Of a DNA stretch of 32,060 nucleotides, positions 11,936-15,354 are shown piece after piece. The notes beneath the pieces are model-generated. The model was not told the DNA's origin, made no database searches, and was given only the letters and a program-made list of their open reading frames with translations. The stretch spans positions 1 through 32,060 of the IMG/VR virus record IMGVR_UViG_3300006192_000532. One strand, written 5' to 3'. This stretch comes from a virus. The position numbers were made by a program, and so were the translations under genes. Every line of letters begins with the position of its first letter. The stretch's first letter is position 1.

Positions 11936-14233
11936 TTATCCCAGCCCGTAGGACTGCCTGAGCAGAACCCTGCGGGTGCTGTCAGACGCCGCTTCCGGCT
12001 TCGGGTTATTGATCGTTATGTCGTAGTTGTTTGTAACATTGCCGCTTTGAACCCCGGGTTCCGAAACTTTTGATTGAGCACCAACGCCAACCTTGAGCAG
12101 TGCTTTTGCCATGATCTCGTCCAGCTTTTCGATGGGGACCACCGCTTCAGTGCCGGCTTCACCAACGCCGATCACACTGGGACTTGAGAAGATTCCGCCC
12201 GACGCATACCAGTTGACCCCAAGCTTCGGGATCTGAGGAGGGTTCAAGCTGAACTTGCCTGTGATCTCAAAATGGGGAAGCTTGATGTGGGGGATTTTTA
12301 TCTCAGGAATCTTCAGGTTCCTGAAGAAGCCGACAATGGCGTCAATTGCTCCCTTTACGGTATTCCGCGCGGCATTGATGGGAGTCTCGATGGCGGATTT
12401 TATTCCGTTCCAAATGCTTGAGGTGACGGATTTGATAGCATTCCATGCGCCGGAAATTACATCCTTGATGACATTGATCTGAGTGGATACCAAACTTCTG
12501 ATTAAGTTCAGTACACCGCTGATGATGCTTTGGATGCCGTTCCATAGGCTGGAGGTCACATTTTTGATGCCTTCCCACACGCCTTGCCAGTCGCCCTTGA
12601 TCAGGCTCGTCACAACCTGAATAATTCCCTTGATCACGTTAAGGGCGGTGGTGACCACGGAGGATACGACGTTGAAGGCTGCTGTGATGACCGCCACGAT
12701 GTCGTTTCCGTACTTATTCCAGATGGCGCTTGCCACCTGAACGAAGGCGGCTATCAAAGCGCGGATGGCTTCAAACACACCCGCCATCACGGATTTGACC
12801 TGGTTCCAGATGGTGATGACGCTGTTCCTGAAATTTTCGTTGTTACGGAAAAGCAGCACAAATATTGCGATGAACCCGGCGACTGCAGCAACTGCGATGC
12901 CTACCGGTCCGGTGATAGCAGCGATGGCAGCACCGACCGCCCCGGATGCGCCGCCTGCGGCAGCCATAGCTCCTGAGATAGCTCCAAATGCAGAGGACAA
13001 TGTTCCTATAACCGACACGACTTTTCCGATGACTAAAACCACCGGCCCTATAGCCGCAGCAATTAGGGCGATTTTCACGACCATTTCCTGTTGTTCCTTG
13101 GAGAGTCCTTGGAATCTGTCCATCAAAGGCTTGATGACAGCGATGAGTTTCTCAAGTATCGGTATCAAAATCTGGCCGAATTGAATCCCTATCTGCTGGG
13201 CTTGTTCCTTCATTGCCCTGATCTTATTGGTCGGGCTGTCCATGGTCCTTGCCAGGTCGCCCTGGGCATTCTTCGTGGCTTCCATGATTGCGCCGTAACG
13301 GGCCTGTACCTTCTGGGCTTCAGTCAGCTGCTCGCCTTGCTTGGCGATTCCGTGGGTGTAGGCATAGGTCTTGACAGTCGTGTCGTTGACTAGGATTCCC
13401 AGAGCCTTGAGCGGTTCCGCTTCACCTGAGATACCGGACTTCAGCTTGTTGAAGGCTTCTTCTGGATTTAAGTTGTAGAAGGAAGCCATATCATAGGAAA
13501 GCTGGGTCAGACCTTCTGACATTTTTAAGGACTCGTCAGATGCAAGTCCCATGGAGGTGAGCATGGCATTGTAGGTGGCCATATTACTTCTGACATTATA
13601 TGCATTTAGCCCGAGAGCTTTGGAGGTTTCCTCCGACCATTTCCTTGCGTCGTCCGCCACACCGCCCATAGCCACTTCGAAAAGGTTCTCGGACTCTACA
13701 GCATCCATTGCCATCTTCGTCGCAGCAGTACCAATTCCAACGAGTGGAAGGGTTACTGCAGTGGAGAGTGTTTTTCCGGCTGAGGATATTTTGTCCCCAA
13801 CGGCCTTCATCTTTGCTCCTGCTTTGTCCATGCTTTCAGAGAGGGCGTACCAGGCGGAACTCTTGGTCTTCAGCTCCTCAGTGGTCGCTTTTAGTTCCTG
13901 TTGCATTTTGCCAAGTTCCGCATTGGCGTAGTTCAGCTTGATCTTCAGGTTCTCCGTGGCTTTGGCATCCGCACCTTTTTTCTCGACGCTCTCCTGGTAG
14001 CTGCGGGTGAGGGCTGCAACCTTATCTTTTTGAAGGTCGACCTGGCGGTTTAAGCTGTCCGCCTTGAGTTTCAAGCCGTCCGTGGACTTTCCGAAGTCCC
14101 CGAGCTTCGAACTGGCGGCTGCAAATTCGCTCTGGACTACCTTAAGGCTCCGTTGGATTTTGCTGACGCCCTCCTGGAAGCCGCTGTCGTCAAGGCCGAT
14201 CCTTGCAACGACCGTGCTGTTGTTTCCTGCCAT
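11936..14233 (-). CDS. Tape measure protein
   Basis: A 765-residue tape measure protein, which sets tail length and is ejected with the DNA. The first 130 residues are coiled coil (SKIQRSLKVVQSEFAAASSKLG onwards). Residues about 135-365 form the conserved TMP domain (AGAKMKAVGDKISSAG, ESENLFEVAMGG, MASFYNLNPEEAFNKLKSG). A strongly hydrophobic Ala/Val/Ile-rich stretch lies at about 385-465. Tryptophan-spaced repeats follow (AIWNKYGN, VWEGIKNVTSSLWNGIQS, AWNAIKSVTSSIWNGIKS). The tail end carries the ASGGIFSSPSVIGVGEAGTEAVVP motif that is common at TMP C-termini. It follows the G/GT chaperone frames, as expected. Using about 0.15 nm per residue, the tail would be roughly 115 nm long. Confidence 0.95.
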   Translation of the reverse strand: MAGNNSTVVARIGLDDSGFQEGVSKIQRSLKVVQSEFAAASSKLGDFGKSTDGLKLKADSLNRQVDLQKDKVAALTRSYQESVEKKGADAKATENLKIKLNYANAELGKMQQELKATTEELKTKSSAWYALSESMDKAGAKMKAVGDKISSAGKTLSTAVTLPLVGIGTAATKMAMDAVESENLFEVAMGGVADDARKWSEETSKALGLNAYNVRSNMATYNAMLTSMGLASDESLKMSEGLTQLSYDMASFYNLNPEEAFNKLKSGISGEAEPLKALGILVNDTTVKTYAYTHGIAKQGEQLTEAQKVQARYGAIMEATKNAQGDLARTMDSPTNKIRAMKEQAQQIGIQFGQILIPILEKLIAVIKPLMDRFQGLSKEQQEMVVKIALIAAAIGPVVLVIGKVVSVIGTLSSAFGAISGAMAAAGGASGAVGAAIAAITGPVGIAVAAVAGFIAIFVLLFRNNENFRNSVITIWNQVKSVMAGVFEAIRALIAAFVQVASAIWNKYGNDIVAVITAAFNVVSSVVTTALNVIKGIIQVVTSLIKGDWQGVWEGIKNVTSSLWNGIQSIISGVLNLIRSLVSTQINVIKDVISGAWNAIKSVTSSIWNGIKSAIETPINAARNTVKGAIDAIVGFFRNLKIPEIKIPHIKLPHFEITGKFSLNPPQIPKLGVNWYASGGIFSSPSVIGVGEAGTEAVVPIEKLDEIMAKALLKVGVGAQSKVSEPGVQSGNVTNNYDITINNPKPEAASDSTRRVLLRQSYGLG

Positions 14234-14247
14234 TTATCTCACCTCCC

Positions 14248-14448
14248 TTAGAACAGAATGTTGTCGATGGTGTCAAAGTCCGAATGCTCATCGATTCCGT
14301 TGACCGTCTTGTAGACCTTGAAAAGAGCCTGGAGCTTTTTGGGGGTGCTGCTCCAGAATTGTTCCTCGCTCATCCGCAGGAGGTTCGTCCCCAAATAGAA
14401 AAGCCACTCCCAGTCCCAGCTTGCGGAACTTAAGTGGCTTTCGATTCC
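14248..14448 (-). CDS. Tail assembly chaperone T extension, made by -1 frameshift
   Basis: This 66-codon open frame overlaps the end of the G-like gene in the -1 frame and ends 14 bases before the tape measure start. Its product contains ASWDWEWLFYLGTNLLRMSEE and FWSSTPKKLQALF. The FW-x-STP-(K/R)-K/F-x-AL signature is characteristic of the T part of siphovirus G/GT chaperones. It has no convincing ribosome site for independent translation, apart from an internal ATG at MSEEQFW. Slippage at the CCCGGGG heptamer (14448-14454) would yield a 172-residue GT fusion: 106 residues from the zero frame plus these 66. The fusion and its free G partner bind the tape measure and recruit the tube protein during assembly. 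Confidence 0.82.
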   Translation of the reverse strand, partial: GIESHLSSASWDWEWLFYLGTNLLRMSEEQFWSSTPKKLQALFKVYKTVNGIDEHSDFDTIDNILF

Positions 14449-14765
14449 CCCGGGGCGTCTTCTGTCTCCGGCATTGACATGTTGAGCGCCTCGTTGATCG
14501 CTGTACCGAGGCTTTCAAGGTCGCTGAGTCCCAGCTGTTCGCCGATGGCCTTGAGGGTGACGCTGCCATCCTCAACTTTCACTGCGGAGTAGATCAGCGC
14601 CCTGACCGCCTTGATCTTCATGTTCTGCAAATCCTCAAAGGCGGCGTTCAGATCGCCGTAGATTTCCTCCAGTTCGCAGAAGGTGTTCATATTGAGCTTC
14701 AGCTCGTACTCCTTATTTCCGAGCTTGAATTTGATGCCCTTGTTCTTCAGTTCAGCTGCCTTCAA
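14430..14765 (-). CDS. Tail assembly chaperone (G-like)
   Basis: A 111-residue protein between the tail tube gene and the tape measure gene, where phages with long non-contractile tails encode the lambda gpG-like chaperone. Its sequence (ELKNKGIKFKLGNKEYELKLNMNTFCELEEIYGDLNAAFEDL) matches the small tail assembly chaperones of Gram-positive siphoviruses: a short beta-hairpin, then helices. The last five codons (ESKAT) lie beyond the predicted slip site and are replaced by the T extension in a fraction of products. It prevents premature polymerisation of the tube protein and wraps the tape measure. The ATG lies behind AAGGGGTGATGAT. Confidence 0.88.
   Translation of the reverse strand: MKAAELKNKGIKFKLGNKEYELKLNMNTFCELEEIYGDLNAAFEDLQNMKIKAVRALIYSAVKVEDGSVTLKAIGEQLGLSDLESLGTAINEALNMSMPETEDAPGESKAT
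14448..14454 (-). promoter_or_regulatory. Programmed -1 ribosomal frameshift site
   Basis: The minus strand reads C CCG GGG in the zero frame, a proper X-XXY-YYZ heptamer. Slipping one base back re-pairs the two tRNAs on CCC and GGG, with a mismatch only at a wobble position. The -1 frame then runs into the T extension. The zero-frame stop follows 15 bases after the heptamer. Confidence 0.8.
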
Positions 14766-14781
14766 ATATCATCACCCCTTC

Positions 14782-15354
14782 TTAGACCGCAGGTGTCGGC
14801 TCAGCCGGCACTGCTGTAAACCAGGCTGAGATGATCGTCGGGTCTGAGCCTGGTTCATCTTCATCTGCAATGAACCTGAAATTGCCGTCAAAGTCCCTGG
14901 AGAAGAAGGTGCCTTTAAGCTTCGCGCTTTTCGGGGAGGGCTTTTCAGCTTCAGTGTCGTACTCGTCCGTAGCCAACTCGAACTTGCCTTTCAGGAGCCA
15001 TACGTAGCGGTACTTGCCGTTGTGCTTCTTCGACTTGAAACCCAGCGCCAGGGGCGGGGCGATGTCTTCCTTGCTCTCAACGAGAACGCCCTTGACTACC
15101 TTGGCACCCTGCAATGTGGCCCTGCTGGTGAGGGATAGCTGGTTAAGCTCGATCTCCACTTCCACGCTGTCAAAGGAAGAGATAATGTCTTCCACCGTAT
15201 CGTCGGAGTAGATATTTTCCGAGTTGACCTTGGGCGTGAGCTTCGCGCTTACAGCCCGTTCCAGCTTGGAGGGTGCCTGATAGGTCGCACCCGTGTTGTC
15301 GTCATCTGTCAGAAGGGCGATGTGGATGTCCCTTAATCCGATTTGTCTTGCCAT
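14782..15354 (-). CDS. Major tail tube protein
   Basis: A 190-residue protein with the layout of phage major tail proteins of the phi13/Gram-positive siphovirus type. The N-terminal strand is IGLRDIHIALLTDDD, the central part is TPKVNSENIYSDDTVEDIISSFDSVEVEIELNQLS (in pieces), and the GFKSKKHNGKYRYVWLLKGKFEL region is followed by an acidic C-terminus. It should polymerise as hexameric rings to make the tail tube. It sits between the tail terminator and the chaperone genes, the conserved order. Translation starts at an ATG with AAAGGAGGTCTAACAT. There is no Ig-like C-terminal extension. Confidence 0.9.
   Translation of the reverse strand: MARQIGLRDIHIALLTDDDNTGATYQAPSKLERAVSAKLTPKVNSENIYSDDTVEDIISSFDSVEVEIELNQLSLTSRATLQGAKVVKGVLVESKEDIAPPLALGFKSKKHNGKYRYVWLLKGKFELATDEYDTEAEKPSPKSAKLKGTFFSRDFDGNFRFIADEDEPGSDPTIISAWFTAVPAEPTPAV

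Follow-up and report, generated by a model that had tools for sequence, protein, structure and literature searches.

In phage lambda, both the functions of gpG and gpGT and the gene order tail tube, G/T, tape measure have been described (PMC5009743). In actinophages, the heptamer GGGGGAA is the sole sequence of the 'fivetwo' motif of PRFect, with about a thousand annotated sites, and the same G-U re-pairing argument that we use below was given there for GGGGGAA (PMC10885494). For corynephage phi16, a combination of GAGG, GGGGGAA and a pseudoknot was predicted (PMC5506516). No paper writing the site as G-GGG-GAA was found in our literature search.

The locus studied here lies in a viral record of 32,060 bases (hereafter the window, meaning the whole stretch of DNA analyzed) that carries siphophage genes. 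Of the window, the 7 kb tested match the genome of Youngiibacter fragilis 232.1 (Clostridiaceae) at 100% identity, and the window is therefore presumably a siphophage prophage of this species. Several places in the 232.1 genome (L145-L152, on at least three contigs) are related to the phage head-tail module, with 63-100% identity. On the minus strand of the window, HK97-type head genes (terminase, portal and capsid) are followed by the tail genes, which are arranged in the order tail tube, G/GT, tape measure, the position expected of a lambda-type chaperone pair (Table 1). We propose, with a probability of about 0.88, that the locus encodes the lambda-type G/GT pair of a clostridial siphophage, and that slippage would take place at G-GGG-GAA, aided by the hairpin that follows it. 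That tail chaperones G and GT are joined here by a -1 frameshift had already been put forward in a sequence-only reading of this DNA, which had placed the slip at C-CCG-GGG; the joining itself is now strongly supported by synteny, by protein families, by the conservation of T in 66 relatives and by a covarying hairpin. A G/GT frameshift is ordinary in kind; what is new is the displacement of the slip site by 3 nt and the covarying hairpin.

The locus shares with lambda the gene order and a short chaperone that is extended in the -1 frame close to the end of G (PMC5009743), whereas the slip heptamer is GGGAAAG in lambda and probably G-GGG-GAA here, where a covarying hairpin was also found; this comparison is one of layout. 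The slip motif of actinophage tail chaperones consists of the same seven bases, as judged by base composition and order, but the host here is clostridial. The prediction for corynephage phi16 includes the same heptamer and elements of the same kinds on either side, of which the upstream one is only a possible element here; its predicted downstream element is a pseudoknot and ours is a simple hairpin, the possible pseudoknot of the window not being conserved. A homologous G (29-31% identity) with the same neighbors was found in Paenibacillus phages LincolnB and Bob, in which T is likewise in the -1 frame and carries a DFFW-x-STL motif, but in which the heptamer is the standard A-AAA-AAC, with its first base 13 nt upstream of the point where the G ORF ends. 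A DNA-level search of the named phages gave no match.

Table 1 Features of the G/GT locus (window coordinates) and tail tube-G gaps in relatives (coordinates of the locus named)
Feature	Position	Strand	Basis
Major tail (tube) protein, directly upstream of G	14782-15354	minus	phrog_88, E 5e-50
G, zero-frame tail assembly chaperone, 111 aa, TTG start	14430-14765	minus	ORF
TGA opening the -1 frame upstream of the slip site	14515-14517	minus	frame scan
Possible Shine-Dalgarno-like GGAG, 14 nt upstream of the heptamer	14466-14469	minus	codon bias
C-CCG-GGG, earlier proposed heptamer, in phase, not conserved	14448-14454	minus	gcC CCG GGG
Probable slippery heptamer G-GGG-GAA (zero-frame ccG GGG GAA)	14445-14451	minus	conservation in relatives
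T, -1-frame extension, 66 codons + stop	14248-14448	minus	open frame, pN/pS, phrog_10988
Downstream RNA hairpin, 18 pairs	14399-14442	minus	MFE fold
Tail tape measure protein, directly downstream of G/T	11936-14233	minus	phrog_1272, E 1e-81, and many other tape measure families
Cargo gaps in relatives, part 1	L129 5092-6934; L130 4720-4968; L131 4813-5337; L133 5165-5629		
Cargo gaps in relatives, part 2	L136 4662-6452; L138 4627-6449; L140 4684-5370		

The zero-frame chaperone G was found on the minus strand with the extent and length (111 residues) given for it earlier; its TTG start sits behind AAGGGGTGAT. It belongs to known tail chaperone families: the protein matches phrog_2115 (E 4e-23) and the tail chaperone family phrog_183 (E 5e-7), and Pfam TAC_12 is matched by 42 of the 44 members of its family (best E 3e-8), the window's own G scoring 18.7, under the Pfam cut-off of 26.2. 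A PDB fold search with an AlphaFold model of G (pLDDT 81) returned no match, and solved structures searched by sequence contained no relatives.

In the -1 frame, the sequence is open from the TGA upstream of the slip site to a TAA at 14248-14250, which leaves 66 codons after the slip and predicts a GT product of 172 aa, exactly as read from the sequence beforehand; the FW-x-STPKK motif noted then is also present in T. The 95-residue ORF that had been named as a wrong call likely at this place does exist, at 14288-14575 in the third frame, and has no match among the PHROG families. T matches phrog_10988 (E 8e-9), and 23 of 33 T members match Pfam TAC_6 weakly. Its AlphaFold model (pLDDT 78) is helical, and the best structural matches are weak, some of them being phage tail assembly proteins. 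Viral contigs were scanned twice and genomes once at the protein level, which yielded 73 distinct G/T pairs. T lies in the -1 frame, as an extension overlapping the end of G and lacking a start of its own, in 66 distinct relatives; among the pairs with both parts scorable, L048 is the only exception. In the latter (near 2501-2836), GGGGGAA and T are intact but the G frame appears to be disrupted upstream of them, through either decay of the prophage or an error in the assembly.

The sequence-only reading had proposed that homologous phages be aligned for conservation of both its heptamer and the T frame. T stays in the -1 frame and open across the relatives; C-CCG-GGG is disrupted in nearly all of them and must be rejected as the conserved site. 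CCCGGGG is indeed in X-XXY-YYZ phase (gcC CCG GGG), and G contains no other XXXYYYZ heptamer in slip phase. However, the rate of such in-phase heptamers in 12 other genes of the window (0.0037 per codon) predicts about 0.10 in the 27-codon overlap, so that CCCGGGG alone is weak evidence; on both strands of the window, four copies were seen vs. 2.5 expected by chance. It is the open, conserved -1 frame, and not the heptamer, that carries the case for frameshifting. The CCC preceding GGGG was kept only in the GT of the window (identical in L002 and L123), in L004, L005 and L109, and in L048 with its damaged G.

By contrast, GGGGGAA, which starts 3 nt further downstream, within the overlap, is invariant in 67 of 67 aligned close relatives, while the bases on either side vary; in the window it occurs once. 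Since GGGGGAA is invariant and CCC is rarely kept, the conserved element is G-GGG-GAA; the site therefore probably moves by 3 nt, and the CCC of the window is most simply regarded as incidental. The codon preceding GGG GAA (ATG in 26 sequences, CCG in 13, TCG in 11, CTG and TTG in 5 each, GTG in 4 and CAG in 2) encodes six amino acids and always ends in G, a base that occupies only 22% of the third positions of these genes. It should be noted that the conservation of GGGGGAA is partly forced by coding, the two frames reading it as Gly-Glu and as Gly-Gly; this constraint leaves the invariant first G and last A unexplained. G-GGG-GAA also departs from the standard X-XXY-YYZ pattern, and its A-site tRNA would re-pair poorly.

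The same G/GT pair produced by a tandem slip on C-CCG-GGG (CCG to CCC, GGG to GGG) would be in phase and would place the start of the hairpin 5 nt after the A-site codon. We consider it improbable, as a family-wide mechanism cannot depend on a heptamer whose CCC has disappeared from nearly all the relatives with GGGGGAA and a -1-frame T. In the phage of the window itself, whose copy also has the CCC, either heptamer could possibly serve.

Three further observations concern the heptamer. Depletion of GGGGGAA elsewhere (13 seen vs. about 46 expected) was set aside as evidence, several other G5 heptamers being equally or more depleted. Two relatives, L039 and L041, carry a second in-phase GGGGGAA about 15 nt upstream of the conserved one, forming a tandem slip site. 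In the distant relatives (the L110-L122 group and the Paenibacillus phages), A-AAA-AAC is found instead of GGGGGAA.

Synthesis of T from a gene of its own, by re-initiation after G and with no frameshift, seems very improbable. The stop of G overlaps T in many relatives, the T frame contains internal TTG and ATG codons, and the annotation of Enterococcus phage vB_EfaS_140 gives the T homolog a CDS of its own in a different frame. However, the first start codon of the -1 frame lies 48-78 nt after the slip in 66 of 66 relatives, in every case downstream of at least the beginning of the conserved ESH...WDWEWL residues, so that ordinary initiation cannot yield a complete T; re-initiation would also leave the invariant heptamer and the hairpin unexplained. 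Once G has ended, no stop occurs in the T frame in 51 relatives of equal length, and its pN/pS is 0.175, vs. 1.46 and 1.52 for the other two frames. Taken with the -1 frame of T and the lack of a start before its conserved N-terminus, this constraint means that a full GT needs recoding. With respect to G, the T homolog of vB_EfaS_140 (L144, 1495-2053) is in the +1 (or -2) frame, so that in this phage either the shift is by +1/-2 or T is separate.

Downstream of the heptamer, an RNA structure is conserved. RNAalifold gives a hairpin core in which 14434-14439 pairs with 14402-14407 and which begins 5 nt after GGGGGAA, the usual spacing of a stimulator. Among 65 aligned sequences, 92% of the cells at paired positions form standard pairs, vs. 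35-55% after displacement of the partner by 1-3 columns, and compensatory double changes were found at six pairs, for example A-U to C-G at columns 12/51, G-C to U-A at 14/49, C-G to U-A and A-U at 18/45, and G-C to A-U at 23/39. None of 500 shuffles reached the observed pairing or covariation, and the folding z averages -5.3 in 63 relatives (mononucleotide shuffles). The hairpin thus has what is looked for in an RNA stimulator, namely a stable, covarying structure about 5-9 nt downstream of the slip site; an Rfam search gave no match. An H-type pseudoknot between 14422-14427 and 14373-14378 was rejected, as only 43% of its cells pair across relatives and as it clashes with the upper stem. Upstream, the Glu codon at the position of GGAG is GAG in 38 of 55 sequences, vs. 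35% of the Glu codons in the rest of G; the bias is confined to the higher-GC group, where GAG is found in 24 of 24, and is only suggestive of an internal Shine-Dalgarno stimulator. Least likely of all is transcriptional slippage, in which RNA polymerase would add or drop a base in the G run and yield mixed mRNAs: the conserved core is indeed a homopolymer, but a run of five G is short for polymerase slippage, which would need neither a fixed phase, nor the conserved AA, nor a hairpin 5 nt downstream.

For frameshifting at G-GGG-GAA, we infer the slippage itself, its rate and which tRNAs move. Most ribosomes would finish G, and a minority, held up by the hairpin, would slip back one base. The P-site glycyl-tRNA would re-pair perfectly (GGG to GGG), and the glutamyl-tRNA would re-pair from GAA to GGA via a middle G-U pair, or the A site would still be empty. 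The slipped ribosomes would then read on through T to give GT. By analogy with lambda, G would coat the tape measure protein and T would recruit tail tube subunits. Depending on the mode of slip, the GT junction would be APG-G-IESH (slip with GGG in the P site ahead of the reading of GAA, or slip on CCG-GGG) or APG-E-IESH; the junction DAPG-GIESH predicted earlier may need changing, as a tandem slip on GGG-GAA would give DAPG-E-IESH, and the check put forward with it addresses the former junction only. The corrected site thus changes both the predicted junction peptide and the mutations worth testing.

Tentatively, and at somewhat less than even odds, G-GGG-GAA might constitute a distinct slippery class, common to the tail chaperones of actinophages and clostridial phages, in which the P-site glycyl-tRNA moves from GGG to GGG and tRNA-Glu either forms a middle G-U pair or is absent. 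The 66 clostridial phages, in which this non-standard heptamer never varies and the hairpin covaries, form a comparative set well suited to the question of how GGGGGAA, common in actinophages, is slippery. In addition, NNG GGG GAA followed by AGCCAC...GTGGCT is a useful signature for gene callers, which easily miss T parts.

The gap between the tail tube gene and G, closed in the window (14766-14781), holds differing cargo genes in clostridial relatives (Table 1). The cargo includes an AbiQ/ToxN toxin, a PDC-M38A-like protein with an Mrr-type nuclease, a PDDEXK nuclease, an SMR transporter with B3/4 and radical SAM proteins (the latter with a viperin-like match), a GIY-YIG protein, an HTH-DUF5680 protein and a BFD ferredoxin. 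This gap looks like a moron and defense hotspot inside the tail operon.
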